From assembly GCF_900631615.1 (NCBI RefSeq), contig NZ_LR131273.1, forward strand, positions 4,000,850 to 4,064,849: a stretch of 64,000 nucleotides of DNA, in the 5' to 3' direction. The position numbers were made by a program, and so were the translations under genes. Under the pieces are notes generated by a model. It ran no database searches, was not told the origin of the DNA, and saw only the letters and a program-made list of their open reading frames with translations. Source of the DNA: Tsukamurella paurometabola (GTDB lineage: Bacteria; Actinomycetota; Actinomycetes; Mycobacteriales; Mycobacteriaceae). The stretch's first letter is position 1. Every line of letters begins with the position of its first letter. Shown piece after piece: positions 22,724 to 37,613 of the stretch.

Positions 22724-22730
22724 CGACGTG

Positions 22731-22758
22731 ATCGGAATCACATTTCCGATGGGCGGAA
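22731..22758. promoter_or_regulatory. composite purine-regulon operator (permease)
   Basis: A perfect dyad ATCGGAA-N6-TTCCGAT (22731-22750) is followed by a third half-site, giving TTCCG-N5-CGGAA (22744-22758). The same two spacings recur before the aldolase, NCS1 permease and xdhA genes. It lies at the predicted transcription start. Confidence 0.65.
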
Positions 22759-22888
22759 CGCAAATCTGCGGAGCCCCACGCGATCGCCACCACGCGTCGC
22801 CTTCGATCAGCCCCACTTCGCCGTCGCTCCCCCGGAGCGCCTGACCGCGAGGGCGCCGGGCCCGGCGCTGCGGACCGAGAGGACCATC

Positions 22889-24397
22889 ATGACAAGTCAG
22901 CAAGAGCAGAGCGGGGCCGACGAACGCGTCGAGATCCCGGCGACCGCCGAACGGACCGACGACCCTCCACGCGCGGGGGCATCGTTCCTGGATCGCTTCT
23001 TCGAGATCACCCGTCGCGGATCGACGATTCCCCGCGAGATCCGGGGCGGCCTCGTCACGTTCGTCGCCATGGCATACATCGTCGTGCTGAATCCCCTGAT
23101 TCTGAGCAGTTCGTCGGACGCCGCCCAGGGAACGCTGGGGTTCGTCCAGGTCACAGCCGTCACCGGACTCACGGCCGGCGTGATCACCATCCTGTTCGGC
23201 GTGGTCGCACGACTCCCCTTCGCGCTCGCCGCCGGGCTCGGCATGAACTCCTTCCTGGCCGTCGCGGTGGTCAAGGACGTCACCTGGCCGGAGGCGATGG
23301 GCCTGGTGATCATCAACGGTGTGATCATCGTGCTCCTGGGCGCCACCGGCATCCGGACGGCGATCTTCCGGGCCGTCCCGGCCGAGCTGAAGACCGCGAT
23401 CACGGTCGGCATCGGCCTCTTCATCGCCTTCATCGGCTTCGTGAACTCGGGCTTCGTCACGCGCACCCCGGCCGGCCCGCCGGTCCAGCTGGGCCACGAC
23501 GGCTCGATCGACGCGATTCCCACCGCGGTCTTCATCTTCGCCCTCCTGCTCATCGCGGTCCTGGTCTCGCGACGCATCCCCGGAGCGATCCTGATCGGCA
23601 TGATCGTCGCGACGATCGCGGCCATCGTCATCCAGCACTTCGCCAAGCTCGGCACTGTCGGCGACCCGAGCCACCCGGACCCGAAGGGGTGGAACCTCAG
23701 CGCCCCCGAGCTGCCCGGTCAGATCGTCGCGCTCCCCGACTTCGGCCTGATCGGCCAGTTCGACCTGTTCGGAGCCTTCGAGCGGGTGGGTGCCCTGGCG
23801 GCCACGATGCTGGTGTTCACGCTGGTCTTCACCAATTTCTTCGACGCGATGGGGTCGATGACGGGCCTGGCGCGCCAGGCGGGCGTCGGGCAGCCCGACG
23901 GGACGTTCCCTCGCATCCGCTCGGCCTTCGTCATCGAAGGCATGGGCGCGGTCGCCGGCGGCGCGACGTCGGGTTCGTCCAACACCGTCTTCGTCGACTC
24001 CGCATCCGGCATCGCGGAGGGCGCGCGCACGGGGCTCGCGGCGTGCGTGACCGGCGTCCTGTTCCTCGGCTCGATGTTCTTCGCGCCCCTGATCGGCGTC
24101 ATCCCGATGGAGGTCGGCGCGGCCGCCCTGGTGGTGGTCGGATCGATGATGGTGGCCCAGATCCGCGAGATCGACTTCACCCACTTCTCGGTGGCGCTGC
24201 CCGCATTCCTCACGATCGTGACGATGCCGCTGACGTACTCGATCGCCAACGGCATCGGCGTGGGCTTCATCACCTGGGCGCTGCTCAGCGTCCTCAGCGG
24301 TCGCGGGCAGCGGTGCCACTGGTTACTGTGGGCGGTCTCGATCGGGTTCATCCTCTACTTCGTCCGAGGACCGATCACCGCGCTCATCGGCGGCTGA
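22889..24397 (+). CDS. NCS2/AzgA-type purine permease
   Basis: The 502-aa transporter resembles the AzgA-like branch of NCS2 carriers (adenine/guanine/hypoxanthine uptake): EIRGGLVTFVAMAYIVVLNPLIL at helix 1, ALAAGLGMNSFLA, and EGMGAVAGGATSGSSNTVFVDSASGIAEGARTGLA around helix 8-10. About twelve to fourteen membrane segments are expected. It lies next to xanthine dehydrogenase and guanine deaminase genes, so it probably feeds guanine or hypoxanthine into the pathway. The promoter carries the shared operator. Confidence 0.88.
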   Translation: MTSQQEQSGADERVEIPATAERTDDPPRAGASFLDRFFEITRRGSTIPREIRGGLVTFVAMAYIVVLNPLILSSSSDAAQGTLGFVQVTAVTGLTAGVITILFGVVARLPFALAAGLGMNSFLAVAVVKDVTWPEAMGLVIINGVIIVLLGATGIRTAIFRAVPAELKTAITVGIGLFIAFIGFVNSGFVTRTPAGPPVQLGHDGSIDAIPTAVFIFALLLIAVLVSRRIPGAILIGMIVATIAAIVIQHFAKLGTVGDPSHPDPKGWNLSAPELPGQIVALPDFGLIGQFDLFGAFERVGALAATMLVFTLVFTNFFDAMGSMTGLARQAGVGQPDGTFPRIRSAFVIEGMGAVAGGATSGSSNTVFVDSASGIAEGARTGLAACVTGVLFLGSMFFAPLIGVIPMEVGAAALVVVGSMMVAQIREIDFTHFSVALPAFLTIVTMPLTYSIANGIGVGFITWALLSVLSGRGQRCHWLLWAVSIGFILYFVRGPITALIGG

Positions 24398-24441
24398 CCT
24401 GCAACGACGCAGTGTCGAGCCGGAACGACCATCGCACCGCA

Positions 24442-24466
24442 GTCCGTGATGCGGAAACAAGATTCC
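24442..24466. promoter_or_regulatory. composite purine-regulon operator (xdhA)
   Basis: GTCCG-N5-CGGAA-N6-TTCC is present: GTCCG at 24442-24446, CGGAA at 24452-24456 and TTCC at 24463-24466. Spacings equal those of the NCS1-permease and aldolase operators; one base of the first half-site is changed. Confidence 0.6.
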
Positions 24467-24481
24467 AAAACCCCTTCCGAA

Positions 24482-24503
24482 TGTGACCCCCGTCACCTAC
24501 ACT
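24482..24503 (+). promoter_or_regulatory. CRP-like dyad and -10 region upstream of xdhA
   Basis: TGTGA-N6-TCACC (24482-24497) matches the CRP/GlxR half-site consensus at 9 of 10 positions. TACACT (24498-24503) could be a -10 hexamer with TTCCGA at 24475-24480 as a weak -35. The dyad would lie between the two hexamers. Inferred by inspection only. Confidence 0.35.
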
Positions 24504-24606
24504 GAAATGCACTGGATCGTGTTCGCATGGATAACCAGCGGTCCAGATCAGCCTCGCAAACCATGCCTGTCCGAACCGCGTGCCGCGGTTCAGTAGGGAT
24601 GCAGCG

Positions 24607-26097
24607 GTGACCGAAACGCTGACCGGATGTCATGTGACCGTGAACGGTCGATCCCGGCCGTTCACCGGCCCGGCCCACACGAGCGCCCTCGATTGGCTGC
24701 GCGATCAGGGCCTCACCGGAGCGAAGGAGGGGTGCGCCGAAGGCGAATGCGGGGCCTGTTCGATCCTGGTCGCCCGGCCCGGGGACCCCGACTCGCCCGA
24801 CGATCGCACCCGGTGGACCGCGATCAACGCCTGCCTCACCCCCGCCGCTGCGCTCGCCGACCAGGAGGTGATCACCTCCGAAGGCCTCGGCGGGCCCGAC
24901 GACCTGCACCCCGTCCAGAGCGCGATGGCACTGCGCGGCGGTTCCCAGTGCGGCTACTGCACCCCCGGCTTCATCTGCAGCATGGCCGCCGAGTTCTATC
25001 GACCGGACCGAGCCGCCGAGCTCGCGCCCGACGACGGAGGACCCGGCTGCGCAGACCACGGCGACGAACACGGCCCCAACGGCTTCGACCTGCACGCGCT
25101 ATCGGGAAACCTGTGCCGCTGCACCGGTTACCGGCCGATCCGGGACGCCGCCTACGGCCTTCCCACCGAGCCCGCGCCCGACGACCCCCTCGCCGTCCGA
25201 CGCTCGGCGCCGGCTCCCGCCGCGGCTCCCACCGTGGTCACCGGCTCCCAGGGGCGATTCGTCCGGCCGGCGGGCCTGGACGAGGTGCTGGACCTGCTCG
25301 CCGACGGTGACGCCCCCGCCCTGGTGGCGGGGTCCACCGACTTCGGCGTCGACGTGAACCTCAAGGGCCGTCGCGAACCCCTGGTGGTCGCCATCGACCG
25401 ACTGCCCGAACTCCGCGAATTGCGCTGGGACGAGGATGTCCTCGAGATCGGGGCGGCCCTCACGCTGTCCGAGATCGAGCGCCGCCTCGACGGCCGCGTC
25501 CCGCTGCTCGCCCAGGTCTTCCCGCAGTTCGCGTCGCGCCTGATCCGCAACGCGGCGACCCTGGGCGGCAACCTCGGGACGGGCTCGCCGATCGGCGACA
25601 CCCCGCCCGCTCTGCTCGCACTGGATGCGCGCCTCGTCCTCGCCTCACGCGACGGCGAGCGCATCGTCCCGCTCACGGAGTACTTCACGGGCTACCGCGC
25701 GACGGTGCGCCGCCCCGACGAGCTCATCAAGGCGATCCGGATCCCACTGCCACTGAGCCCGCTCACCGCGTTCCACAAGATCGCCAAACGGCGCTTCGAC
25801 GACATCTCCAGCGTCGCTGTCGCCTTCGCGCTCACCGTCGAGGCGGGCACGATCACACGGGCCGCGATCGGCCTCGGCGGCGTGGCCGCGACCCCGCTCC
25901 GCGCCACGACCACCGAGCAGGCTCTCGTCGGGCGCCCCTGGTCGGAGGAGACCATCCGCGCCGCGGCCGAGGTGCTGCGGGCCGAGGGCACCCCGATGGA
26001 CGATCACCGGGCGTCCGGCGCCTACCGCGTCGCGATGCTCGGACGATCGCTCGAGAAGCTGTTCGCCGACGGCCCGGCCCGAGAGGAGCTGTCATGA
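24607..26097 (+). CDS. xdhA: xanthine dehydrogenase, 2Fe-2S/FAD subunit
   Basis: The 496-aa subunit carries two [2Fe-2S] clusters (Cys43, 48, 51, 76 and Cys115, 118, 170, 172) and a C-terminal FAD domain from about residue 215 (PALVAGSTDFGVDV; RNAATLGGNLGTGSPIGD). It passes electrons from the Mo site to NAD. A ~25-residue insertion rich in Asp/Gly separates the last two cysteine pairs. GTG at 24607 has AGTAGGGA upstream; another GTG at 24580 would add 9 residues. It overlaps xdhB by 4 bases. Confidence 0.93.
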   Translation: MTETLTGCHVTVNGRSRPFTGPAHTSALDWLRDQGLTGAKEGCAEGECGACSILVARPGDPDSPDDRTRWTAINACLTPAAALADQEVITSEGLGGPDDLHPVQSAMALRGGSQCGYCTPGFICSMAAEFYRPDRAAELAPDDGGPGCADHGDEHGPNGFDLHALSGNLCRCTGYRPIRDAAYGLPTEPAPDDPLAVRRSAPAPAAAPTVVTGSQGRFVRPAGLDEVLDLLADGDAPALVAGSTDFGVDVNLKGRREPLVVAIDRLPELRELRWDEDVLEIGAALTLSEIERRLDGRVPLLAQVFPQFASRLIRNAATLGGNLGTGSPIGDTPPALLALDARLVLASRDGERIVPLTEYFTGYRATVRRPDELIKAIRIPLPLSPLTAFHKIAKRRFDDISSVAVAFALTVEAGTITRAAIGLGGVAATPLRATTTEQALVGRPWSEETIRAAAEVLRAEGTPMDDHRASGAYRVAMLGRSLEKLFADGPAREELS

Positions 26098-28520
26098 GCC
26101 ACCTGTCCGAACGTCCCGCGCACCCCGTCGTCGGGCAGGAGATCCCCCACGAGAGTGCGGCCCTGCACGTGACCGGCGCGGCGCTGTACACCGACGACCT
26201 GGTCGGACGTACCCCGGGCGCTCTCCACGCCCACCCCGTCCAGGCGGATTGCGCACACGCGCGGATCGTCACGATCGACACCGAGCCCGCGCTGCGCGTC
26301 CCCGGCGTCGTCCGCGTCCTGACCGCGCACGACGTCCCCGGCGTCAACGACGCCGGCGTCAAACACGACGAGCCGCTGTTCCCCGTCGACGAGGTGATGT
26401 TCTACGGGCACGCCGTGTGCTGGGTCCTCGCCGAGACACTCGAAGCGGCCCGGCTCGGCGCCGCCGCGGTGCGCCTCGAACTCGAGCCGCTGCCCTCGCT
26501 CATCGCGGTCGGCGACGCCATCGCTGCGGAGAGCTTCCACGGCGCCCGCCCGACGGTGCGGCGCGGCGACCTCGAGACGGGCTTCGCCGAGGCCGCACAC
26601 GTCTACTCGGGCGAGTTCGAATTCGCCGGCCAGGAGCACTTCTATCTGGAGACGCACGCCTCCTTGGCCCAGGTCGACGAGAGCGGACAGGTCTTCGTCC
26701 AATCCAGCACGCAGCACCCGTCGGAGACGCAGGACATCGTGGCTCACGTCCTCGGATTGCCGAGCAACGCCGTCACGGTGCAGTGCCTCCGCATGGGCGG
26801 GGCCTTCGGCGGCAAGGAGATGCAGCCGCACGGCTTCGCCGCGATCGCCGCGTTGGGCGCAACGCTCACCGGGCGCCCGGTCCGCCTGCGGTTGGACCGC
26901 ACGCAGGACATGACCATGTCGGGCAAGCGGCACGGCTTCCACGCCACGTGGCGGGTCGGCTTCGACGCGGACGGACTCCTCACGGCCCTCGAGGCGACGC
27001 TCACCGCGGACGGTGGCTGGAGCCTCGATCTGTCCGAGCCGGTCCTCGCCCGCGCCCTGTGCCACATCGACAACGCCTATTGGATCCCCAATATCGCGGT
27101 GCACGGTCGGATCGCGAAGTGCCACAAGACCTCGCAGACCGCGTTCCGCGGATTCGGCGGTCCGCAGGGCATGCTCGTGATCGAGGACATCCTCGGGCGG
27201 TGCGCTCCGCTGTTGGGGCTGTCGGCGCGCGAGCTGCGTCGGCGCAATTTCTACGGCGACGGGCAGACCACGCCGTACGGCCAGCCCGTGCGGCACGCCG
27301 ACCGGGTCCGTACCGCCTGGGAGCAGGTCATCGCATCCGGGGAGATCGAGGCGCGCGAGGCGGAGATCGACGCCTTCAACGCGACGCATCCGAACGTCAA
27401 ACGCGCCCTCGCCGTGACCCCCGTGAAGTTCGGCATCTCCTTCAACCTCACCGCCTTCAACCAGGCCGGCGCGCTCGTCCTCGTCTACAAGGACGGGTCC
27501 GTGCTCATCAACCACGGCGGCACCGAGATGGGCCAGGGCTTGCACACCAAGATGTTGCAGGTCGCAGCCACCACGCTGGGCGTGCCGCTCTCGCGGGTGC
27601 GTCTCGCGCCGACCCGGACCGACAAGGTGCCCAACACGTCCGCCACCGCCGCGAGTTCCGGTGCCGACCTCAACGGCGGCGCGGTGAAGAACGCGTGCGA
27701 ACAGATCCGCGACCGCCTCGCGGCCGTCGCCGCGTCGCTCATCGGCACCAATCCGTCGGACGTGCGGTTCAGCGACGGCACGATCAGCGGGCTCGGCGCC
27801 TCGGCGCAGAAACTCACCTGGGAGGAGGTCGTGCACGCCGCGTACTTCCAGCGCGTGCAGCTCTCGGCGTCCGGCTACTACCGGACCGAGGGCCTGCACT
27901 GGGACGCGAAGGCGATGCAGGGTGAGCCGTTCAAGTACTTCGCGTACGGCGTGGCCGCGAGCGAGGTCGAGGTCGACGGGTTCACCGGCGCGTACCGCCT
28001 GCGGCGCGTCGACATCGTCCACGACGTGGGCGATTCGCTCTCCCCGATGATCGACATCGGCCAGATCGAGGGCGGCTTCGTGCAGGGGGCCGGGTGGCTG
28101 ACGCTGGAGGACCTCCGCTGGGACGAGAGCGATCGGCCCACCCGCGGGAGACTCCTCACGCAGTCCGCCAGTACCTACAAGCTGCCGAGCTTCTCGGAGA
28201 TGCCGCCGGACTTCCGGGTCGCGTTGCTGGACAAAGCGCACGAGGACGGTGCGGTGTACGGCTCGAAGGCCGTCGGCGAGCCGCCGCTCATGCTCGCCTT
28301 CTCCGTGCGCGAGGCGCTGCGCCAGGCCGCGGCCGCGTTCGGGCCGCCGGGGGCATCCGTCGAACTCGCGTCCCCCGCGACTCCGGAGGCCGTGTACTGG
28401 GCGGCCGAGGCCGCGCGGACGACGGCCCCGTCCGATCCGAAGCGGAACGGGCACCGTCCGACCACGGTTCGCGCGACCGGATCCGCGGCGGCGGCACCCG
28501 CTCCCGCCCCGCTCGGCTGA
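26094..28520 (+). CDS. xdhB: xanthine dehydrogenase, molybdenum-binding subunit
   Basis: The 808-aa large subunit binds the molybdopterin cofactor and oxidises hypoxanthine and xanthine to urate. Visible are GAALYTDDL at the start of the domain, GGAFGGKE, the substrate-pocket AFRGFGGPQGM, GTEMGQGLHTK and EPPLMLAFSVREAL with the catalytic-Glu region (AVGEPPL). Length is typical of two-subunit bacterial enzymes. A low-complexity Ala/Pro tail of ~40 residues follows the fold. Start and stop are tightly packed with xdhA and xdhC. Confidence 0.95.
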   Translation: MSHLSERPAHPVVGQEIPHESAALHVTGAALYTDDLVGRTPGALHAHPVQADCAHARIVTIDTEPALRVPGVVRVLTAHDVPGVNDAGVKHDEPLFPVDEVMFYGHAVCWVLAETLEAARLGAAAVRLELEPLPSLIAVGDAIAAESFHGARPTVRRGDLETGFAEAAHVYSGEFEFAGQEHFYLETHASLAQVDESGQVFVQSSTQHPSETQDIVAHVLGLPSNAVTVQCLRMGGAFGGKEMQPHGFAAIAALGATLTGRPVRLRLDRTQDMTMSGKRHGFHATWRVGFDADGLLTALEATLTADGGWSLDLSEPVLARALCHIDNAYWIPNIAVHGRIAKCHKTSQTAFRGFGGPQGMLVIEDILGRCAPLLGLSARELRRRNFYGDGQTTPYGQPVRHADRVRTAWEQVIASGEIEAREAEIDAFNATHPNVKRALAVTPVKFGISFNLTAFNQAGALVLVYKDGSVLINHGGTEMGQGLHTKMLQVAATTLGVPLSRVRLAPTRTDKVPNTSATAASSGADLNGGAVKNACEQIRDRLAAVAASLIGTNPSDVRFSDGTISGLGASAQKLTWEEVVHAAYFQRVQLSASGYYRTEGLHWDAKAMQGEPFKYFAYGVAASEVEVDGFTGAYRLRRVDIVHDVGDSLSPMIDIGQIEGGFVQGAGWLTLEDLRWDESDRPTRGRLLTQSASTYKLPSFSEMPPDFRVALLDKAHEDGAVYGSKAVGEPPLMLAFSVREALRQAAAAFGPPGASVELASPATPEAVYWAAEAARTTAPSDPKRNGHRPTTVRATGSAAAAPAPAPLG

Positions 28521-28527
28521 GCCCGCC

Positions 28528-29337
28528 ATGACCTGGCTGGGCGACGCCGCCCGCCTCCGCCGACAGCGTGTCCCCGCGGTCCTGATCACCCAGATCGGCG
28601 TCCGCGGGCACGCTCCCCGGGAGGCCGGCGCGAAGATGATCGCCACCGCCGACGCCGAGTTCGGCACGATCGGCGGCGGCAACTTGGAACTGACGGCGAT
28701 CGACCGCGCCCGCGAACTCCTGCGGGACGCGGTCACCACGCCGGAGACGCTGACCCTGCGGTTGAACGACAAGGCCCGCAATCACCACGGGCGCCAATGC
28801 TGCGGAGGCGAGGTGGTCCTCTTGTTCGAGCCGCTACCGGTGGTCCCGGCCGTCGCGATCTTCGGGGTCGGCCACGTCGGCCTCGAACTCGCGCGCATCC
28901 TCTCGCGCCACGACGTCGAGCTCTACCTCACCGACTCGCGCCCCGAGCAACTCGAGGCCGCCCGCGGTCTGGAGCCCGGCGATGCGACCGTGCACCTGCG
29001 CCATTCGATGCTGCCCGAGGAGGTGCTGGAGGAGCTCCCGCCGGGCTGCCACGTGCTCATCATGACGCACGACCACGCCGAGGACTTCAGCCTGTGCGAC
29101 CAGGTGCTGCGGACGCCCGGGCTCGGCAGCGTGGGCCTCATCGGTTCCGCCGCGAAGTGGACCCGGTTCCGCGCGATGCTCACCGACGCGGGCCACGACG
29201 CCGCGGACATCCAGACCATCCGATCCCCCATCGGGCTGAGCACCCTGACCGGCAAGCATCCGGCGACCATCGCCGTGAGCGTGGCCGCGGACCTGCTCAC
29301 CCGCTTCCCCTCATCCGTGCAAGGAGACCCCTCATGA
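28528..29337 (+). CDS. xdhC: xanthine dehydrogenase accessory protein XdhC
   Basis: XdhC (269 aa) binds molybdenum cofactor and inserts it into the xdhB product. The N-terminal XdhC/CoxI domain has GAKMIATADAEFGTIGGGNLE and RQCCGGEVVLLFE (Cys pair). The C-terminal Rossmann domain has VAIFGVGHVGLELA and GLIGSAAKWTRF. It begins 7 bases after xdhB and overlaps guaD by 4 bases, so xdhABC-guaD is one transcript. Confidence 0.93.
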   Translation: MTWLGDAARLRRQRVPAVLITQIGVRGHAPREAGAKMIATADAEFGTIGGGNLELTAIDRARELLRDAVTTPETLTLRLNDKARNHHGRQCCGGEVVLLFEPLPVVPAVAIFGVGHVGLELARILSRHDVELYLTDSRPEQLEAARGLEPGDATVHLRHSMLPEEVLEELPPGCHVLIMTHDHAEDFSLCDQVLRTPGLGSVGLIGSAAKWTRFRAMLTDAGHDAADIQTIRSPIGLSTLTGKHPATIAVSVAADLLTRFPSSVQGDPS

Positions 29338-30617
29338 CCATCTACCGCTGCCGCGTCCTCGATACCCCCGACGATCCCTTCGCCGGGGGTGAGCTGCGCT
29401 CGCACGAGGATGCCGGCATCGCGGTCGAGGCGGGCGTGATCGTCGACCGCGGCGAGTTCCGCACCGTCGTCGAACGCCACCCGGGCGTGGACATCGTCGA
29501 CCTGCGCGAGGGCGTGCTCCTCCCCGGCCTGGTGGACACCCACGTGCACTATCCGCAGATCCGGGCCATCGGCGGCCTCGGCATGCCGCTGCTCGACTGG
29601 CTGGACCAGTGCGCGTTGCCGGAGGAGTGCAAGCTCGCGGACCCCGAGTACGCCCGCACCGTCGCGCGCGAGTTCCTCACGGGTCTCACCGCCGCCGGGA
29701 CGACGACGGCCCTCGTCTTCGGTTCGCACTTCGCCGATGCGGTCGACGCGCTCTTCGACGAGGCCGACCGAGTCGGCGTCCGAGTCACTGCGGGCCTGGT
29801 GACCAGCGACCGCAACCTGCCGGAGCCCCTCCTCAGTACCCCGGCACGCTCCTACGACGAGGGCCGTAAGCTCGCGGAGCGCTGGCACGGCCATCGCCGA
29901 CTGCGGTACGCGGTCACGCCCCGGTTCTCCTATTCGACGTCGCCGGAGATGCTGGACAGCGGCGCCGCACTCGCCGCGGACGTCCCCGGCCTCTGGTTCA
30001 CCTCGCACATCAACGAGAACCCCGCCGAGATCGCGGCGGTCATCGACCAGTTCCCCGGATCGGCGGACTACCTCGACACCTACCACCGGCACGGGCTGAT
30101 CCACGAGCGTTCCGTGCTGGCGCACAACGCACACCCGACCGATGCCGAGCTGGCGCTCATGGCCGGGGCGGGGGCGTCGGTCGCCCACTGTCCGACCTCG
30201 AACTCGGCCCTGGCGAGCGGCTCCTTCCCGCTGCGGCGTCACCTCGACCACGGCGTGACCGTCGCCCTCGGCACGGATGTCGGTGCGGGCAGCGGCTTCT
30301 CGTTGTTCAAGGAGGGCCTGCAGGCCTACTTCATGCAGCAGCTGCTCCAGAGGGACGGCGTACCCCTCACCGCGGCGCACCTGTTGCACCTCGCCACCCG
30401 CGCAGGCGCGACCGCGCTGGGGCTCGACGACGTGGGCGACCTGTCCGTCGGACGCCAGTTCGACGCGGTGCTGGTCCGCCCCACGCCCGGCCATCCGCTG
30501 GACGTCGGCCTGCGCCACGCCGAGTCGGCCGACAACGCCCTGGCGAAGATCTTCTCGCTGGCCACGCCCGCGGACATCGCGCGCGTCTGGGTCGGTGGCG
30601 ACACGGTGGTCGCCTGA
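29334..30617 (+). CDS. guaD: guanine deaminase
   Basis: The 427-aa amidohydrolase converts guanine to xanthine, the substrate of the preceding dehydrogenase. Zinc ligands appear in PGLVDTHVHYPQ (HxH) and in ALGTDVGAGSG (Asp). The family-specific segments FTSHINENPAEI and HCPTSNSALASGSFPLR are intact. An AAGGAG ribosome-binding site precedes the ATG at 29334. A GC-rich dyad (CTCGGC-N6-GCCGAG, 30620-30637) directly follows the stop and may end the transcript. Confidence 0.94.
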   Translation: MTIYRCRVLDTPDDPFAGGELRSHEDAGIAVEAGVIVDRGEFRTVVERHPGVDIVDLREGVLLPGLVDTHVHYPQIRAIGGLGMPLLDWLDQCALPEECKLADPEYARTVAREFLTGLTAAGTTTALVFGSHFADAVDALFDEADRVGVRVTAGLVTSDRNLPEPLLSTPARSYDEGRKLAERWHGHRRLRYAVTPRFSYSTSPEMLDSGAALAADVPGLWFTSHINENPAEIAAVIDQFPGSADYLDTYHRHGLIHERSVLAHNAHPTDAELALMAGAGASVAHCPTSNSALASGSFPLRRHLDHGVTVALGTDVGAGSGFSLFKEGLQAYFMQQLLQRDGVPLTAAHLLHLATRAGATALGLDDVGDLSVGRQFDAVLVRPTPGHPLDVGLRHAESADNALAKIFSLATPADIARVWVGGDTVVA

Positions 30618-30649
30618 CGCTCGGCGGCCCGGCCGAGGTCGTGAAATCC

Positions 30650-30678
30650 TTGTGCGGACCCCAGGACCGGCGTAGACT
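30650..30678 (+). promoter_or_regulatory. promoter of the aldolase-allE operon
   Basis: TTGTGC (30650-30655), 17 bases, then TAGACT (30673-30678) form a good housekeeping-type promoter. The start of transcription would be near 30685. The operator at 30677-30701 covers the end of the -10 and the start site, as expected for repression. Confidence 0.6.
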
Positions 30679-30701
30679 CCACTATGCGGAATTACTTTTC
30701 C
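30677..30701. promoter_or_regulatory. composite purine-regulon operator (aldolase-allE)
   Basis: CTCCA-N5-CGGAA-N6-TTCC: CTCCA at 30677-30681, CGGAA at 30687-30691 and TTCC at 30698-30701. The central TGCGGAA with TTCCA is nearly identical to the NCS1-permease site. It overlaps the promoter. Confidence 0.6.
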
Positions 30702-30722
30702 ATTAGCACCGACGGAGGTCCC

Positions 30723-31997
30723 ATGCCCAGCCGCTCGCTCACCGACGACGCCCTGGCCGCGATCGAGCGTCGGCTGGCCGCCACCGATGAGTTCCTGGCT
30801 CGGAACTACCCGGGGGACGACGGCCGCCGCCGGCCCGTGCACACCGTCTACCTCCCTGCGGACCGGTTCACGCCCGCCACCGCGCGGGAGTGGGGTGATC
30901 AGGCCCTCGCGGCGGCGGACGCCGCCGGCGGCCTCGCGGCGGTCGCGCGCACGGTCGGTCTCGAAGACCCCGCACTCCCCGACCTGGTGCACCGCAAGCT
31001 CTGCGAGGAGCCGATCGAGGACGTCCGCCTGGACTTCGAGGACGGCTACGGCGACCGCGGAGACGAGACCGAGGACGCCGACGTCGCCGGCGCCGTCGAC
31101 GCCGTCGCGACCGCGGTGCGGGAGGACTCGGCGCCGCCGTTCGTGGGGATCCGGTTCAAGTGCATGGAGGCCCCGGTCCGGGCCCGCGGTCTGCGGACCC
31201 TCGACCTGTTCGTGAGCGGCCTCGCGGCGGCCGGTCCCCTTCCCGACGGGCTCACCGTCACATTGCCGAAGGTCACCACGGTCGGCCAGGTCGAGGCGAT
31301 GGTCGACGCGAGCCGGGCGCTCGAGGCCGCGCTGGGACTCGCCGAGCGGAGCCTGCGGTTCGAGGTGCAGGTGGAGACCCCGCAGGTGATCCTCGGAGCG
31401 GACGGCACCGCCCCTGTCGCGACCCTGCTGCACGCGGCGGACCGGCGCGTGACCTCGCTGCACTACGGCACGTACGACTACTCCGCTTCGCTCGGCATCG
31501 CCGCCCAGCACCAGTCGATGGAGCACCCCGCGGCCGATCACGCCAAGAACGTCATGCAGCTCGCCATCGCGGGGACGGGCGTGCACATGTCCGACGGCTC
31601 GACCAACATCCTGCCGATCGGCGACCCCGCCCACGTCGCCGACGCCTGGCGGCTGCACGCGCGCCTCGTGCGCCGGCACCTCGAGCGCGGCATCTACCAG
31701 GGCTGGGACCTGCACCCGGCGCAACTGATCACGCGGTTCCTGGCGACCTACGCCTTCTACCGCGACGGCTTCCCCGCCGCGGCACTACGGCTGCGGAACT
31801 ACGTGCACCGCATCGATTCCGCGATCCTGGACGAGCCGGCCACGGCCCGCGCGCTCGCCTCGTTCATCCACCGCGGCGTGACCTGCGGGGCGGTCACCGC
31901 CGCCGAGGTCGCGTCCGCCGCCGAGGTCACCGTCGACACGGTCCGCGACCTCGCCCTGAACCGCCCCACCACCACCCAGCCCGAGGAGACCCGATGA
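30723..31997 (+). CDS. CitE/HpcH-type aldolase-superfamily protein in ureide operon (DUF6986-like)
   Basis: The 424-aa protein has TIM-barrel lyase signatures of the HpcH/HpaI-CitE-malate synthase superfamily: VRLDFEDGYGDRGDE, FVGIRFKCME (Arg), RFEVQVETPQVI (metal Glu) and TSLHYGTYDYSASLG (metal Asp). It is longer than CitE and much shorter than malate synthase A or G. I recall similar actinobacterial proteins being labelled aldolase or DUF6986. It starts at ATG 30723 behind GGAGG and overlaps allE by 4 bases, so a role on ureidoglycolate, glyoxylate or a related C2 product is likely but unproven. Confidence 0.8.
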   Translation: MPSRSLTDDALAAIERRLAATDEFLARNYPGDDGRRRPVHTVYLPADRFTPATAREWGDQALAAADAAGGLAAVARTVGLEDPALPDLVHRKLCEEPIEDVRLDFEDGYGDRGDETEDADVAGAVDAVATAVREDSAPPFVGIRFKCMEAPVRARGLRTLDLFVSGLAAAGPLPDGLTVTLPKVTTVGQVEAMVDASRALEAALGLAERSLRFEVQVETPQVILGADGTAPVATLLHAADRRVTSLHYGTYDYSASLGIAAQHQSMEHPAADHAKNVMQLAIAGTGVHMSDGSTNILPIGDPAHVADAWRLHARLVRRHLERGIYQGWDLHPAQLITRFLATYAFYRDGFPAAALRLRNYVHRIDSAILDEPATARALASFIHRGVTCGAVTAAEVASAAEVTVDTVRDLALNRPTTTQPEETR

Positions 31998-32830
31998 GCA
32001 CAGCAGCGACGAGAACGGCGCGCACCTCCTACTATTCGCCGCAGGGCGGCCACCCGCCGCAGACGGACCTGCTCACGGACCGCGCCATCGTGACCGAGGC
32101 CTACACGGTGATCCCGCGCGGCGTCATGCGCGACATCGTGACCTCGGTGTTCCCCGGGTGGACGAACACGCGGGCCTGGGTCCTCAACCGCCCGGTCGCC
32201 GGCGGCTCGACCACGTTCGCGCAGTCCATCGTCGAGGTCTCCCCCGGCGGCGGCTCGGACGCCCCGGAGCCGCAGGCACAGGTGCAGAGTTTCCTCCTCG
32301 TCACGCAGGGCGACCTGCGGGTGACGATCGACGGTACGGCGCACGACCTGACCGAGGGCGGCTACGCCTACATCCCCGCCGGCACGCCCTGGTCCGTCAG
32401 CAACACGGCCGACGGTGCCGCCGTGTTCCAGTGGATCCGCAAGCGCTACGAGCCGCTCGCCGGACACACCCCCCGCGTGGCCGTCGGCAACGAGCGGGAC
32501 ATCGAGCCCTCGCCGATGCCGGGCACGGACAACAAGTGGCGCACCACACGGATCCTGGATCCGCAGGACCTCGCCTACGACATGCACTGCAACATCGTGA
32601 CCTTCGAGCCGGGAGCGTCGATCCCGTTCGCCGAGACCCACGTCATGGAGCACGGCCTGTACGTGCTCGAGGGCAAGGCCGTGTACCGCCTCAACGGCGA
32701 CTGGGTCGAGGTGCAGGAGGGCGATTACATGTCCCTGCGCGCGTTCTGCCCGCAGGCCTGCTACGCCGGCGGACCGTCGAACTTCCGCTACCTGCTGTAC
32801 AAGGACGTCAACCGCCAGATCCTCCTGTAG
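31994..32830 (+). CDS. allE: (S)-ureidoglycine aminohydrolase
   Basis: The 278-aa bicupin matches the AllE/UGlyAH (YlbA) family: the N-terminal cupin has QSFLLVTQGDLRVTIDG and GYAYIPAGTPW; the C-terminal cupin has NIVTFEPGASIPFAETHVMEHGLYVLEG with the Mn ligands (Glu, His, His) and GDYMSLRAFCPQACYAGG. It releases ammonia from (S)-ureidoglycine to give (S)-ureidoglycolate. The allantoate amidohydrolase that should supply its substrate is not in the window. It is coupled to the upstream aldolase gene (ATGA) and ends at a strong bidirectional terminator. Confidence 0.92.
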   Translation: MSTAATRTARTSYYSPQGGHPPQTDLLTDRAIVTEAYTVIPRGVMRDIVTSVFPGWTNTRAWVLNRPVAGGSTTFAQSIVEVSPGGGSDAPEPQAQVQSFLLVTQGDLRVTIDGTAHDLTEGGYAYIPAGTPWSVSNTADGAAVFQWIRKRYEPLAGHTPRVAVGNERDIEPSPMPGTDNKWRTTRILDPQDLAYDMHCNIVTFEPGASIPFAETHVMEHGLYVLEGKAVYRLNGDWVEVQEGDYMSLRAFCPQACYAGGPSNFRYLLYKDVNRQILL

Positions 32831-32843
32831 GAACGCCGCTGTA

Positions 32844-32879
32844 GGAAGTGCCCCTCCCGAATCGGGGAGGGGCACTTCC
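32844..32879. terminator. bidirectional terminator between allE and the convergent phosphorylase
   Basis: A perfect 15-bp stem (GGAAGTGCCCCTCCC and its complement) encloses a 6-base loop. It lies 13 bases after the allE stop and 19 bases after the stop of the convergent gene. Tails in both directions have short pyrimidine runs only. Confidence 0.8.
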
Positions 32880-32898
32880 CTGTTCCTGGGGGATCACA

Positions 32899-33660
32899 TC
32901 ACGACAGGTCCGCGGCGGCGCGGATCAGCGCCGCGCGCAGGCGCTGGGTGTGCGCGTCGAGTTCCGCCTGCACACGCTCCTGGCTGACGGGCCAGGGTGT
33001 CTCGTCGATGACGTCGTGATCGGTGACCAGCGCGACGCAGGCGTAGCCCATGCCGAGTTCGCGGGCGAGCACGGCCTCGGGGTACGGCGTCGTGGACACG
33101 AGGTCCCAGCCCTGCGCGGCGTACCACCGGGACTCGGCCGCGGTCGAGAACCGTGGGCCGCGGATGGCGACGACGACGCCGCCGTCGGCCACCACCCAGC
33201 GCTGCTCGCGCAGCGCGGCGATCGCGGCGGCGCGGGTCGGCTCGGAGAACGGGTGCGCGAAGGTGACGCGCACGTCCTCGTCGTCGTGGAAGGTGTCGTC
33301 GGTGCGGCCGGTCCGGTCGACGAGCTGGTCGGGCACCACGACGGTGCCGACGCCGACCGCGGGGTCGAAGGCTCCGGCGGGGGTCGCGGCCAGGATGTGC
33401 CGCACACCGAGGTGGTGCAGGGCCCAGATGTTGGCGCGGTGATTGATCCTGTGCGGCGGGATGGTCCGCTCGCGTCCGGACCGGGTGAGGTAGGCGACGC
33501 GGCGGCCGTGCGCGGTGCCGATCACCACGTCGTCCGACGGGGTCCCGTAGGGCGTGTCCACGGGATACGAGCGGGCGTCGTCGAGGAGCCCGTAGTAGCC
33601 CCAGCTGCCGAGGATCGCCACGGTGACGTCGGCGCCGGCGGGCGCAGTGGGCTCAGGCAT
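32899..33660 (-). CDS. MTAP/PNP-family nucleoside phosphorylase
   Basis: The 253-aa protein belongs to the trimeric purine nucleoside/methylthioadenosine phosphorylase family: GRERTIPPHRINHRANIWALHHLGVRHILA, IRGPRFSTAAESRWY and ALVTDHDV are diagnostic. It splits a purine nucleoside (or MTA) with phosphate, giving free base that the neighbouring deaminase and dehydrogenase can use. The N-terminal phosphate loop is shifted relative to classical MTAP, so the exact substrate is open. Its start overlaps the dctA stop by 8 bases, so it is the last gene of the NCS1-racemase-dctA transcript. Confidence 0.85.
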   Translation of the reverse strand: MPEPTAPAGADVTVAILGSWGYYGLLDDARSYPVDTPYGTPSDDVVIGTAHGRRVAYLTRSGRERTIPPHRINHRANIWALHHLGVRHILAATPAGAFDPAVGVGTVVVPDQLVDRTGRTDDTFHDDEDVRVTFAHPFSEPTRAAAIAALREQRWVVADGGVVVAIRGPRFSTAAESRWYAAQGWDLVSTTPYPEAVLARELGMGYACVALVTDHDVIDETPWPVSQERVQAELDAHTQRLRAALIRAAADLS

Positions 33661-35071
33661 TCTTCGCTCCTTCGGCATCGGTGGTCGTCGCCGCAGCGGA
33701 CGCGGGGGCCGGGTCCGGATCGGTCGCGCGCGGCGGGAACGCGGCGGCACCGTGGCCGGGGTGCGTCCGCACGTCGTCGGGATCGTCCACGACGAGCGTG
33801 CCCTCCAGGACGGCCTTCATCCTGTCGGTGTCGAGCAGGCCCTCCCACCGGGCGATGACGAAGGTGGCGAGGCAGTTGCCGAGCAGGTTGGTCGCGACGC
33901 GCATGGAGTCCATGAGCCGGTCCGCGCCGAGCAGGAGGGCGACCGCGGCCACGGGGAAGGCACCCACAGCGGCGGCCGTGGCGGACAGCGCGACGAACGC
34001 GGAGCCGGGAACGCCCGCCATGCCCTTGGAACTGAGGATCAGAATCCCCATGATCGTGATCTGCTGTCCCACACTGAGGTCCACGCCGACGGCCTGCGCG
34101 AGGAACATCATCGACAGCGACAGGTAGATCGCCGCCCCGTCGAGGTTGAACGAGTAGCCGGTCGGGATCACCAGGCCCACCACCGATCGGTCGCACCCCG
34201 CGGCGTCGAGCTTCTTGATGACCGAGGGCATCACCGCCTCGGACGATCCGGTGCCGAGCGCGAGCATGAACTCCTCACGGCAGTACTTGAGGAACTTCCA
34301 CGTGCTCACGCCCGTGATGAGGCGCACCGCGACGGCCAGTATGAGGATGAACACGACCGCGGCGCCGTAGCACGCCAGTACGAGCATGCCGAAGGACTTG
34401 AGCGAGTCGGCACCGTAATTGCCCACCGTGAAGGCCATCGCGCCGAACGCGCCGATGGGCGCCAGGTACATGATGTAGCTGACGATCCGGAAGATCACGT
34501 GCATCGCCTGATCGATGACCTCGAGCAGGACCGGCTGGACCTTCTCGCTGATCGCCGCCAGCGCCACGCCGAACAGCACCGCGAACAGGAGCACCTGAAG
34601 CAGGTTGTTCTTGGCGAAGGCGTCGACCACCGACGTCGGGATGATGTTCATGACGAAGTCGACGCCGCCGGGCAGGTGCTCTCCGTGGGTCTTCTCGTCG
34701 AGTGCGCTGGCGTCGAGCGTCGCCGGGTCGATGTTCAGCCCGGCCCCGGGCCGGACGATGTTGCCGACCACGAGGCCGAGGGCGAGCGCGAACGTGGTGC
34801 ACACGGTGAACCACAGGAGGGCCTTCGCGCCGATCTTGCCGAGCGCCGCCATGCTGCCGACCTTCGCGATGCCGGTCACCACCACGAGGAAGATCAGGGG
34901 CGAGACCAGCATCTTGATGAGCTTGATGAAGCCCTGGCCCAACGGGGCGAGATGGTCCGAGAAACCAGGGAAGAAGATGCCCGTCGCGATGCCCGCGGCG
35001 ATGCCGATCAGCACCTGTACGAACAGGGATCTGTACCAGGGCTTCTTCTTCGGCGCTTCCGTCGTGGTCAT
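33653..35071 (-). CDS. dctA: C4-dicarboxylate:cation symporter DctA
   Basis: The 472-aa carrier belongs to the DAACS (SLC1-like) family: FIKLIKMLVSPLIFLVVVTGI, the serine-rich re-entrant loop LGTGSSEAVMPSVIKKL, GYSFNLDGAAIYLS and the AGVPGSAFVALSAT segment. About eight membrane helices and two hairpins are expected. DctA proteins take up succinate, fumarate and malate. Its place between racemase and phosphorylase genes suggests use of carbon acids made during ureide growth, or uptake of a carboxylated ureide; either is inference. AAGGGA precedes the ATG. Confidence 0.9.
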   Translation of the reverse strand: MTTTEAPKKKPWYRSLFVQVLIGIAAGIATGIFFPGFSDHLAPLGQGFIKLIKMLVSPLIFLVVVTGIAKVGSMAALGKIGAKALLWFTVCTTFALALGLVVGNIVRPGAGLNIDPATLDASALDEKTHGEHLPGGVDFVMNIIPTSVVDAFAKNNLLQVLLFAVLFGVALAAISEKVQPVLLEVIDQAMHVIFRIVSYIMYLAPIGAFGAMAFTVGNYGADSLKSFGMLVLACYGAAVVFILILAVAVRLITGVSTWKFLKYCREEFMLALGTGSSEAVMPSVIKKLDAAGCDRSVVGLVIPTGYSFNLDGAAIYLSLSMMFLAQAVGVDLSVGQQITIMGILILSSKGMAGVPGSAFVALSATAAAVGAFPVAAVALLLGADRLMDSMRVATNLLGNCLATFVIARWEGLLDTDRMKAVLEGTLVVDDPDDVRTHPGHGAAAFPPRATDPDPAPASAAATTTDAEGAKNA

Positions 35072-35110
35072 GTGCCGTCCCTTCGTCGCCGGAACATCGA
35101 TGCGGCCGTC

Positions 35111-35833
35111 TCAGTTCTCGAACGGCCAGCCCGTCACGACCTTGGGTCGCGGCGGGGCGTAGGTACGAACCTTGGAGGTCTTGAGGCCCATCCGCACGAG
35201 CCCCTCGGCGATCGTCACGGCGGAGCGGACACCGTCGACGATGGGGACGCCCGTTGCGGCGGATACCTTCTCCTCCAGCTCCGCCATCCCGCCGCAACCG
35301 AGACAGATCACCTCGGCACGGTCGCGTTCGACGGCCTCCCGCGCCTGCGCGACGATGGCCTCGACGGCCCGCTCCGGCTCGGACTCGAGCTCGAGGACGC
35401 CGAGCCCCGAGGCGCGGACCGAGGCGCACCGTGCGTCGAGGCCGGCCAGCTTGAGCCGGTCCTCGATGAGCGGGACCGTGCGGTCGAGCGTGGTGACCAC
35501 GGAGTACTTGTGGCCCAAGTACATCGCGGTCGAGGCGGCCGCCTCGGTGATGTCCACGACGGGCACCTCGAGTAGCTCCTGCAGGCCCTCGCGGCCGTGC
35601 TCGCCGTAACCGGCCTGGATCACCGCGTCGTACGGGCCGTCGTACCGCGTGATCGCGTCCATGACGGCGATCGCCGCGAGGTAGGACTCGAAGTTGCCCT
35701 CGCACGAGTCCGCGCCGAAGCGCGGTGTGATCCCGACGATCTCGGTGCCGGGCGAGGCCGCGGAGCGCGCCGACTCGGCGATCGCTGCGGTCATGGACTC
35801 GGTGGTGTTGACGTTGGCGACCAGAATGCGCAT
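35111..35833 (-). CDS. allantoin/hydantoin racemase-family protein lacking the first catalytic Cys
   Basis: The 240-aa protein matches the Asp/Glu-hydantoin racemase superfamily: MRILVANVNTTESMT, VVDITEAAA, VICLGCGGMAEL and VPIVDGVRSAV. Two cysteines normally act as the acid-base pair. The second is present (Cys180 in LGCGGM), but the first, normally in an ACFGDPG-like motif, is Gly75 (QAGYGEHG). A two-base racemase mechanism is therefore doubtful. One-Cys relatives such as arylmalonate decarboxylase have Gly at this place. AGGAG lies 8 bases before the ATG, 12 bases after the NCS1 permease gene. Confidence 0.85.
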   Translation of the reverse strand: MRILVANVNTTESMTAAIAESARSAASPGTEIVGITPRFGADSCEGNFESYLAAIAVMDAITRYDGPYDAVIQAGYGEHGREGLQELLEVPVVDITEAAASTAMYLGHKYSVVTTLDRTVPLIEDRLKLAGLDARCASVRASGLGVLELESEPERAVEAIVAQAREAVERDRAEVICLGCGGMAELEEKVSAATGVPIVDGVRSAVTIAEGLVRMGLKTSKVRTYAPPRPKVVTGWPFEN

Positions 35834-35844
35834 CGCGAGTACTC

Positions 35845-37386
35845 CTAGTGCTTGCTGGGAACGGCGATCGGCTCGCCGGAGACGTCGACGAACGGGCCCC
35901 GACGATCGGCGACCACCAGGTAGACGAGCGCGCCGAGGCCGGCGCCGATGAACCACGAATAGTTCGAGACGACGTGGAACGCGGGCACGAAGGCCATCAG
36001 CAGAGCCGCACCGGCGGTCGGCACCAGCGCGATCACGGCCCGCGGGTTCACCCCGCCCCGGTAGTAGTACGGAGCGTCGGGCAGATCGCAGTAGAGATCC
36101 GGAACGTTCACCCGGCTCTTGCGGATGAGCCAGTAGTCGGCCATGACGATGCCGAACAGGGGGCCGAGCAGCGCGCCGAGGCCACCGAGGAAGTAGGTGA
36201 TGACGACGGGCGAGTTGTACAGGTTCCAGGGCAGGATGACCAGGCCGATCACGCCGGAGATGAGTCCGGCTCGACGGAAGTTCAGATGCTTGGGGAACAG
36301 GTTGTTGAGTGCGTAGATCGGGGCGACGAAGTTCGCCATCAGGTTCACGGCCACGGTGAGGACGAGCAGCGCCAGGCAGGCCAGGACGAGCAGAAGCGTG
36401 TTCGGCACCGTCTTCACGATGTCGGCGGGTGACTCGATGACCTGCCCGTTGATCTTGAACTGCGCGCCCGCCAGCGTGATCACGATGGCGCCGAACAGCA
36501 GCATGTTGAGCGGGATGCCGAAGAAGTTGCCGCGCACGATGGACTTCTTCGAGGTCGCATTGCGGGTGAAGTCGCAGAAGTTGAGGACGAACGTGCCGTA
36601 GATGGCCACCCACAGGCTGGCGCCGCCCACGATCTGCAGCCACATGTCCAGGCCCGTCTTGGATTCGGGGGTCGTCCAGGCGATGGACCAGCCCGCCTTG
36701 CCGAGCATCCAGATCGCCAGCGCCGCCATCGTGATGAGGATGACCGGGCCGGCGAAGGCCTCGTACTTGCGGATCATCTCCATCCCGTAGCTGACGATCA
36801 CGAGCTGCACGACCCACAGCAGGAGGAAGGAGATCCAGCCCAGCGTCGAGAGTCCCAGGAATCGATTCTCATCGAGGGTCGTCGCGTCGGGCAGCACCGC
36901 GATGATGAGGATGCGGAGGACGACGGAGGCGAGGTAGGTCTGGATACCGAACCAGGCGATCGCGACGACGCCGCGGATCAGGGCGGGGATCTGGGCCCCG
37001 CGGATGCCGAACGAGATGCGGCTCATCACGGGGAAGGGCACTCCCGTCTTCTCCCCCATGAACCCGGACAGGTTGAGCAGCAGGAACAGGAAGACCCCTC
37101 CCAGACCCAGCGCCAGCAGGATCTGCCATCCCCCGAGGCCCAGCGCGAACAGGCCGATGGCGAAGGCGTAGTTGCCCAGACTGTGCACGTCGTTCGCCCA
37201 CAGGGTGAAGATGTTGTAGCCGCCCCACGTCCGGCCGGCCCGCTTGGTGGGAGCGAGATCCTGGTTGTAGAGGCCGGCACTGAGCCGGTTCAGGGCCTCC
37301 ACGTCCGGGACGTCCGCGACATCGGCGTCACCGAGCCGGATCGGATTCGCCTCCGCCGCGACGCGGGGGGTGAGTTCTTCTGTCAT
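35845..37386 (-). CDS. NCS1-family permease, probable allantoin or hydantoin transporter
   Basis: The 513-aa, twelve-helix protein is an NCS1 carrier: NQDLAPTKRAGRTWGGYNIFTLWANDVHS at helix 1, GVPFPVMSRISFGIRGAQIP, FCDFTRNATSKKSIVRGNFFGIP and LFGIVMADYWLIRKSRV. This family imports allantoin, hydantoins, uracil or purines. Location beside a hydantoin/allantoin-racemase homologue and allantoinase favours allantoin. The promoter and composite operator lie just upstream on the same strand. Confidence 0.9.
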   Translation of the reverse strand: MTEELTPRVAAEANPIRLGDADVADVPDVEALNRLSAGLYNQDLAPTKRAGRTWGGYNIFTLWANDVHSLGNYAFAIGLFALGLGGWQILLALGLGGVFLFLLLNLSGFMGEKTGVPFPVMSRISFGIRGAQIPALIRGVVAIAWFGIQTYLASVVLRILIIAVLPDATTLDENRFLGLSTLGWISFLLLWVVQLVIVSYGMEMIRKYEAFAGPVILITMAALAIWMLGKAGWSIAWTTPESKTGLDMWLQIVGGASLWVAIYGTFVLNFCDFTRNATSKKSIVRGNFFGIPLNMLLFGAIVITLAGAQFKINGQVIESPADIVKTVPNTLLLVLACLALLVLTVAVNLMANFVAPIYALNNLFPKHLNFRRAGLISGVIGLVILPWNLYNSPVVITYFLGGLGALLGPLFGIVMADYWLIRKSRVNVPDLYCDLPDAPYYYRGGVNPRAVIALVPTAGAALLMAFVPAFHVVSNYSWFIGAGLGALVYLVVADRRGPFVDVSGEPIAVPSKH

Positions 37387-37424
37387 GCTGGGCCTTCATT
37401 CTCGCTGGCTGACCGCTCGAATCT

Positions 37425-37450
37425 TTTCCGTTGTGCGGAAATGCTGTTCC
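37425..37450. promoter_or_regulatory. composite purine-regulon operator (NCS1 permease)
   Basis: TTTCCG-N5-CGGAAA (37425-37441) is a perfect dyad, and CGGAA is followed after 6 bases by TTCC (37447-37450). This is the full three-half-site form. On the minus strand it lies just downstream of the predicted transcription start. Confidence 0.68.
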
Positions 37451-37462
37451 ACTGGTAGCGAT

Positions 37463-37492
37463 AAGTAAGACCTATCTCAGCGACTCTGTCAA
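37463..37492 (-). promoter_or_regulatory. promoter of the NCS1 permease operon
   Basis: On the minus strand a perfect TTGACA (37492-37487) is followed after 18 bases by TTACTT (37468-37463). Transcription would start near 37456, directly before the operator. Confidence 0.5.
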
Positions 37493-37543
37493 GGCCCATG
37501 TCGCATGTCGGAATATGATCGTCACACGCCGGAAACGGTGATC

Positions 37544-37573
37544 TTGACTAGTGGCGCAGGTCACACCTACTGT
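37544..37573 (+). promoter_or_regulatory. promoter of allantoinase
   Basis: TTGACT (37544-37549), 18 bases, then TACTGT (37568-37573). The region also contains a perfect dyad GGTCAC-N7-GTGACC (37559-37577) overlapping the spacer and -10, which could bind another regulator. Confidence 0.5.
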
Positions 37574-37590
37574 GACCGCAGGATCGAGAC

Positions 37591-37613
37591 GAAATTCCGC
37601 GACTCGGAATTTC
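37591..37613. promoter_or_regulatory. purine-regulon operator (allantoinase)
   Basis: A perfect 9-base dyad, GAAATTCCG-N5-CGGAATTTC, lies between the predicted transcription start and the ribosome-binding site of allB. It has the TTCCG-N5-CGGAA core of the other sites but no third TTCC half-site at +6. Confidence 0.7.

Follow-up and report, generated by a model that had tools for sequence, protein, structure and literature searches.

The purine cluster and its operators

The window considered here (the whole stretch analysed, 64,000 nucleotides long) comprises bases 4000850–4064849 of the single-contig 4.70 Mb genome of Tsukamurella paurometabola, and carries a cluster of genes for the breakdown of purines and ureides together with a gene for an IclR-family regulator. 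An earlier note on this DNA had described a TTCC/GGAA operator at five promoters of the cluster. All five sites were present as claimed, within 3 bases of the coordinates given there, and the list proved too narrow: we found eight promoters with such a site, the additional three being those of iclR itself and of two remote operons. One operator family tags most of the purine-breakdown operons, and it is very probably read by one IclR/AllR-type protein.

Each operator consists of TTCC/GGAA half-sites (boxes) that form a dyad with 11 bp between box centres (TTCC-N7-GGAA). At most promoters, a second dyad with a 10 bp distance (GGAA-N6-TTCC) uses one box of the first as a common middle box, giving a three-box site. 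The operators and genes are listed below in order of position, with conservation given as the number of invariant box columns in an alignment of the upstream regions of 14 same-genus loci (13 genomes) and the window, from which relatives below 60% identity were omitted.

21660–22424, minus strand: iclR-family regulator gene (P0001, 254 amino acids; Pfam HTH_IclR and IclR_C), the proposed operator reader, AllR-type
22496–22510, minus strand: iclR operator, TACCG-N5-CGGAA on the gene strand, a one-mismatch dyad; 6 of 8 box columns invariant in 14 sequences
22734–22758, minus strand: three-box site of the purine permease gene (pbuX), exact GGAA-N6-TTCC-N7-GGAA; 12 of 12 box columns invariant in 11 sequences
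22889–24397, plus strand: pbuX, purine permease (Xan_ur_permease)
24442–24466, plus strand: xdhA three-box site, outer arm GTCC, one mismatch; 11 of 12 box columns invariant in 12 sequences
24607–26097, plus strand: xdhA, xanthine dehydrogenase small subunit (TIGR02963, 410 bits, below the cut-off of 467; the GTG start at 24607 is our reading)
26094–28520, plus strand: xdhB, xanthine dehydrogenase molybdopterin subunit (TIGR02965, 932 bits, over cut-off)
28519–29337, plus strand: xdhC accessory protein, start approximate (TIGR02964, over cut-off)
29337–30617, plus strand: guanine deaminase, start approximate (TIGR02967, over cut-off)
30677–30701, plus strand: three-box site of the aldolase–allE operon, outer arm CTCC; 11 of 12 box columns invariant in 14 sequences
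30723–31997, plus strand: DUF6986 HpcH/HpaI-like aldolase (PF22484, 553 bits)
31994–32830, plus strand: allE-type cupin (Cupin_2, two stretches), a candidate (S)-ureidoglycine aminohydrolase, its function taken from context and the naming in the earlier note, with no equivalog model
35845–37386, minus strand: ncs1, NCS1 allantoin-type permease (PF02133; PRK11375, 308 bits, below the cut-off of 620)
37426–37450, plus strand: ncs1 three-box site, exact TTCC-N7-GGAA-N6-TTCC, just after the start assigned by eye; 12 of 12 box columns invariant in 14 sequences
37591–37613, no strand assigned: allB operator, a dyad with 9-base arms, exact TTCCG-N5-CGGAA core at 37595–37609; 7 of 8 box columns invariant in 14 sequences
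37632–38981, plus strand: allB, allantoinase (TIGR03178, 551 bits, over cut-off)

The altered outer arms that had been reported at xdhA (one changed base) and at the aldolase–allE operon (CTCCA) were read directly, the latter counting as one mismatch in the 12-base box pattern and as two in TTCCG-N5-CGGAA. The iclR site in the window is a dyad with no N7/N6 three-box.

The −35 and −10 boxes and start sites were all assigned by eye. As previously suggested, four of the five original sites lie at or just after a plausible start, and the fifth, at xdhA, lies upstream of the −35. The pbuX operator spans approximately +4 to +28 (−35 TTGACA at 22695, −10 TTCACT at 22718), and the aldolase operator overlaps the −10 and the start of the aldolase–allE operon. 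The operators of the two remote operons, named OHCU and hyi after their first genes, are also placed at or just after the start. A −35 of the TTGAC type was seen at pbuX, ncs1, allB, OHCU and hyi. At xdhA, the operator precedes a −35 of TTCCGA (24475) and a −10 of TACACT (24498).

The two remote operons lie about 0.82 Mb from the window if the chromosome is circular. Their sites, at genome positions 154389 and 157704, are 3.3 kb apart and alike in sequence, and were picked by eye from the genome-wide composite scan. They precede genes for OHCU decarboxylase–HIUase–uricase–permease and hyi–glxR–gcl, the uricase being identified by our reading of the open frame, not by a family match. OHCU decarboxylase, HIUase and uricase carry out the steps from urate to allantoin, and hyi–glxR–gcl encode the steps from glyoxylate to glycerate.

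Specificity and conservation of the sites

The exact dyad TTCCG-N5-CGGAA occurs at six places in the 4.70 Mb genome, three of them in this cluster. The exact three-box site TTCC-N7-GGAA-N6-TTCC occurs at two places genome-wide, both in the cluster. The earlier claim that one operator family marks a purine/ureide regulon is supported. Allowing up to one mismatch, the composite gave 21 rows genome-wide, of which four corresponded to the known promoters and two to the remote operons. Eight of the other 15 one-mismatch rows of the N7 pattern fell in coding-like frames (third-position G+C of at least 0.85). With a 13-base form of the pattern, picked after the sites were seen, six of the nine places at up to one mismatch were promoters of purine, ureide or glyoxylate operons; the other three were in coding-like frames (third-position G+C 0.90–0.92).

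Four things were computed directly: the sites themselves, how well they are conserved, the fixed spacing of their boxes, and the association with this IclR across Actinobacteria. Within the genus, 59 of 64 box columns were invariant, compared with 189 of 665 other upstream columns, with neither columns nor genomes being independent. Both remote sites were kept in all 12 genus genomes with a copy more than 70% identical, an alignment from which less similar relatives (under 70%; three for hyi, nine for OHCU) were omitted, including the distant OHCU homologs of genomes G009 and G012. An ortholog of the IclR gene was found in 14 of 16 same-genus genomes; the same 14 carry an exact three-box site, and the two genomes without IclR have none. 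Exact three-box sites are also held by genomes outside the genus, several of these sites looking unrelated to purine genes.

To follow the regulator further, we took the best 80 loci with IclR relatives from 84,980 species genomes (53–97% identity), 78 of them outside the genus, and sought pathway neighbours with 20 pathway proteins. In 77 of these 80 loci, the IclR gene is accompanied by one or more further genes of the pathway set. The spacing (7,6) gave 43 exact matches in 38 of the 78 non-genus loci, whilst each of the 80 other spacings gave at most four; the reversed control gave no exact match in the 78 loci, and 172 scrambled-box controls gave a mean of 0.2. These counts are not independent, given the relatedness of the non-genus loci and the sharing of sites between divergent starts. 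Sites were listed one by one for 46 of the 78 non-genus loci, whereas the spacing and per-gene counts used all 78.

Three-box sites at up to one mismatch were found before ncs1 in 19 of 20 cases, allB in 37 of 52, OHCU in 13 of 19, hyi in 10 of 15 and iclR in 45 of 78. Before gcl, glxR and allE, which are usually internal to operons, a one-mismatch site was found in none of 70 distant cases. The check in related genera that had been proposed in the earlier note, made in loci of up to about 20 kb around IclR orthologs, recovered the motif in Gordonia, mycobacteria, Micrococcales, Brevibacterium and Streptomyces. Four loci (L095, L097, L099 and L100) have iclR divergent from DUF6986–allE, with xdh, pbuX and guaD not found in the 20 kb locus, and represent a minimal ureide-only cluster.

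In Streptomyces, all 21 loci among the best 80 encode a 55–58% identical IclR with allB divergent beside it, and 18 of the 21 carry an exact three-box site in the 320 bases upstream of IclR, between allB and iclR. By identity and gene order, the IclR of the window is a putative ortholog of this Streptomyces gene. A study by Navone et al. in 2015 is said to have found that AllR of Streptomyces coelicolor controls allantoin genes. The likeness to Streptomyces AllR consists of an IclR gene beside a divergent allB with the same operator, S. coelicolor itself not being among the 21 loci. There are also differences: in the single Streptomyces locus that was annotated (L204), a true malate synthase gene, not DUF6986, follows with a one-mismatch site, and pbuX, xdh and guaD, which are present in the window cluster, were not found in the 21 Streptomyces loci.

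The regulator and its mode of action

It is highly likely that these sites are the operators of the AllR-type IclR-family regulator encoded at 21660–22424, with binding predicted. The assignment to the neighbouring IclR is strongly supported by the sequence comparisons. The earlier note had proposed this same protein, binding as two dimers on opposite faces of the DNA. The choice of protein stands, the cross-genus link making it the most likely reader; the opposite-face arrangement fails on geometry, since with 11 and 10 bp between box centres all three boxes point to the same side of the helix, and both dyads use the middle box. An IclR dimer, or half of a tetramer, would contact the boxes from this one face, and the box geometry fits alternative registers or a tetramer.

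Three boxes of alternating direction are a published type of IclR operator, predicted for 32 orthologous groups and 199 regulators (Suvorova and Gelfand 2021, PMC8222616). There, TTYC-N7-GRAA defines group 1 and GRAA-N6-TTYC group 2, and PcaU is cited. The same arrangement is seen here, with a group 1 and a group 2 dyad sharing the middle box, exactly at pbuX and ncs1 and with one mismatch at xdhA and DUF6986. The IclR domains and a site before the regulator's own gene (in the window, the one-mismatch iclR dyad) also match this class. In the main text of PMC8222616, the word ‘purine’ is absent and ‘allantoin’ appears twice (for Escherichia coli AllR and in the reference list); the present group may be among the 32. 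AllR of S. coelicolor is an IclR-family regulator of allantoin genes, as cited in PMC12772271.

The IclR protein scored 61.6 bits with PF09339 and 104.2 bits with PF01614. It shares with E. coli AllR and IclR the family, the allantoin/glyoxylate theme and GGAA/TTCC palindromes (Table 1 of PMC8222616), but those E. coli operators are single palindromes in the same table, and the protein scored well below cut-off with both models (106.3 bits against 406 for the AllR equivalog NF007548; 136 bits against 380 for the NCBIfam IclR model). The best NCBIfam relative was the BhcR equivalog NF045644, also below cut-off (155.6 bits against 350). BhcR of Paracoccus denitrificans belongs to a glyoxylate-responsive sister group of IclR/AllR and likewise lacks Ala at position 161 (PMC11323563), but it controls the beta-hydroxyaspartate cycle and acts as an activator. 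GenR of Corynebacterium glutamicum has a similar site, ATTCC-N7(5)-GGAAT (Table 1 of PMC8222616), but controls 3-hydroxybenzoate/gentisate genes.

We infer binding, repression, the ligand and the start sites along the following lines. Bound protein would block pbuX, DUF6986–allE, ncs1, allB, OHCU–HIUase–uricase and hyi–glxR–gcl; at these six promoters, the operator lies at or just after the start, and steric repression is therefore expected. The site before iclR would provide autoregulation. The route from xanthine to glycerate would open once an intermediate of the pathway (allantoate, ureidoglycolate or glyoxylate) had released the protein from the DNA. For an AllR of the Streptomyces type, release of repression by allantoate or glyoxylate would be expected. 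The xdhA site, at about −68 to −44, precedes a weak −35, and its effect may therefore differ.

A number of results weigh against this assignment. In the window alone, the one-mismatch dyad is not significant (5 seen against 2.4 expected; 7 of 100 shuffles reach 5). The worry, raised in the earlier note, of a motif frequent genome-wide with no link to purine genes holds for two-mismatch sites, which are not specific (87 against 43 for the reversed control), whilst the motif survives it for exact and near-exact sites. Seven of the 15 remaining one-mismatch rows (six places) are not clearly coding-like, and one of these, a three-box site at 819188–819212 (approximately 5189–5213 of locus L029), appears intergenic and lies near DUF520 and M48 peptidase genes with no visible purine link. 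The sole hydantoinase/carbamoylase-family gene found in the genome, the candidate allantoate amidohydrolase, has no site; it was rejected as a regulon member, with no GGAA-N6-TTCC within one mismatch in its 4.2 kb locus and just two three-mismatch three-boxes there, which is chance level.

Some of the proposed operators also depart from the pattern. At allB in the window, a third box was not found within one mismatch, in agreement with the earlier description of a dyad lacking the third arm. At hyi the spacer to the third box is one base longer (N7), and at OHCU the outer box reads TTTC, each in 12 of 12 genomes. In the distant loci, a three-box site at up to one mismatch precedes DUF6986 in only 16 of 52 cases, the second urate permease in 1 of 10 and pbuX in none of 2. 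One of the 172 scrambled-box controls reached nine exact matches. Neighbouring spacings were found at one mismatch before the same genes, (8,6) at allB in 19 of 52, (7,7) at iclR in 17 of 78 and (6,6) at OHCU in 10 of 19; the spacing is thus preferred rather than absolute, or the same boxes were counted shifted. Furthermore, the two genus genomes without IclR are also without close DUF6986, hyi and OHCU genes, so that this co-absence cannot separate the regulator from its targets.

Finally, the effector pocket differs from that of E. coli IclR/AllR at two of five contacts to the glyoxylate oxygens. In E. coli IclR numbering, transferred by our own count along the alignment to the reference residues of Table 1 of PMC11323563, Gly160, Asp212 and Ser241 are kept, whilst Val161 and Gly239 replace Ala161 and Ser239; the pocket also has a more polar patch, with Ser143 and Thr146. 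These changes suggest that the ligand may be larger than glyoxylate. BhcR also differs at 161 yet answers to glyoxylate, and for this reason glyoxylate stays among the candidate ligands.

It is possible, though on balance rather unlikely, that the regulator has a dual role, repressing where it sits at or after the start and activating xdhA, with the shared middle box allowing a dimer register of 11 or 10 bp. The xdhA operator at 24442–24466 lies upstream of a poor −35 (TTCCGA, with TACACT), leaving room for activation, whereas the other promoters named above have a −35 of the TTGAC type. For BhcR, an activating role has been reported, with glyoxylate weakening the binding to DNA (PMC11323563), and two dimerization modes have been proposed for three-box IclR members (PMC8222616). 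However, a fourth TTCC overlaps the xdhA −35 and is also compatible with repression, and a CRP-like site occupies the same spacer, in a promoter whose start was placed by eye.

That the boxes are read by another regulator, the IclR gene being a mere neighbour, we consider very unlikely. Other IclR paralogs probably exist in the genome (26 first-look candidates), and half-sites of the TTCC/GGAA kind are compatible with several members of the IclR family (Table 1 of PMC8222616). Against this, clusters from Tsukamurella to Streptomyces retain the IclR gene (as neighbours were sought with the 20 pathway proteins, another shared regulator gene is possible), the iclR promoter itself carries a site in the genus, and no three-box site within two mismatches was seen in four DUF6986 loci that lack a neighbouring IclR. 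Chance dyads combined with shared promoter ancestry, without any function, are scarcely credible as an explanation: TTCC and GGAA are short and one-mismatch dyads are not rare in the window alone, but the spacing (7,6) stands out among 81 tested, the boxes are more conserved than their surroundings, and unlinked operons of the same pathway carry them.

Control by the neighbouring AllR-type IclR is of a type already known, and the regulon represents a well-supported new example, larger than first described. For Tsukamurella, it offers a near-complete, testable wiring diagram of purine breakdown; comparable sites also occur in Gordonia, mycobacteria, Micrococcales and Streptomyces. Its eight conserved natural operators, whose third boxes differ, form a panel for studying how IclR proteins use three-box sites. 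In the open-access literature, no paper on such a regulon in Tsukamurella, Gordonia or mycobacteria stood out, the genus names not having been used as queries.

CRP-like sites, the xdhA leader and neighbouring genes

In addition to the operators, the promoters carry GTGA-N6-TCAC sites, which we take to be CRP/GlxR-like, and xdhA has a conserved leader. The corresponding features in the window are as follows.

22728–22741, no strand assigned: GTGA-N6-TCAC overlapping the pbuX start and first operator box; in 9 of 10 genus relatives
24483–24496, no strand assigned: GTGA-N6-TCAC between the xdhA −35 and −10; in 10 of 11 genus relatives
24512–24610, plus strand: xdhA 5′ leader, conserved and probably structured; near-invariant in 12 genus genomes

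The GTGA-N6-TCAC site is conserved at OHCU and at hyi (12 of 12 each; 6356–6371 and 9681–9696 in locus L028), and was found in none of 13 sequences at each of iclR, DUF6986, ncs1 and allB. The 14 genus loci contain 21 occurrences in 264,512 bases. The longer form CGTGA-N6-TCACA occurs at 18 places genome-wide, three of them here. The CRP/GlxR-like sites at four of the eight promoters could represent a second regulatory tier.

The xdhA leader begins at approximately the transcription start placed by eye. A fold of 11 of the 12 sequences has 31 pairs, of which two show a double change and several are disrupted in one or two of the sequences; the 5′ helix shows one-sided changes, and the 3′ hairpin holds two double changes. 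The shuffle z-score was −2.0, and an invariant GCATGG/CCATGC could form a pseudoknot. No Rfam family scored over threshold for the leader, with one match far below the gathering score. Of 298 genomes of the order searched with a covariance model built from 11 sequences, two contained the leader, and both belong to this genus; in 20 other loci the model gave nothing better than an E value of 0.08. A leader peptide was considered and rejected: the 27-codon frame before xdhA is cut short in 2 of 12 genomes, which makes a structured RNA likelier. We regard the leader as a candidate riboswitch or other leader RNA.

These elements lead us to a more elaborate scheme, which we think improbable. In this two-register switch, the regulator would occupy boxes 1 and 2 or boxes 2 and 3 depending on ligand, blocking most promoters and activating xdhA; CRP/GlxR-like input would act only at the purine-uptake, xanthine, urate and glyoxylate promoters, the ureide promoters would be under the AllR-type protein alone, and a ligand-sensing leader RNA would add a third layer at xdhA.

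The regulon ties DUF6986, a family of unknown function, to ureide/glyoxylate catabolism. Among the best 80 loci, DUF6986 was present in 52 of the 57 that are neither of the genus nor of Streptomyces, and allE in 50 of 57. The structure, predicted with good confidence (predicted local distance difference test, 87), had malate synthases as its best Protein Data Bank matches, with E values from 4e-7. Template modelling scores on the query were 0.34–0.49 at root-mean-square deviations of about 18–20, so that the likeness covers parts of the fold. The family alignment comprised 19 of 21 sequences, L194 (a stop in the translation) and L193 being left out. A search of the genome for the ureidoglycolate lyase AllA (PF04115) gave no match, and DUF6986 was not found in the open-access literature searched. 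DUF6986 is a candidate glyoxylate-condensing or ureidoglycolate-cleaving enzyme.

Within the purine cluster of the window lie a PNP-like phosphorylase-superfamily gene (32899–33675) and a DctA-type transporter gene (33653–35071), with no recognised operator here. The same pair is also found in the cluster of several genus members and of genome G030 (locus L101).

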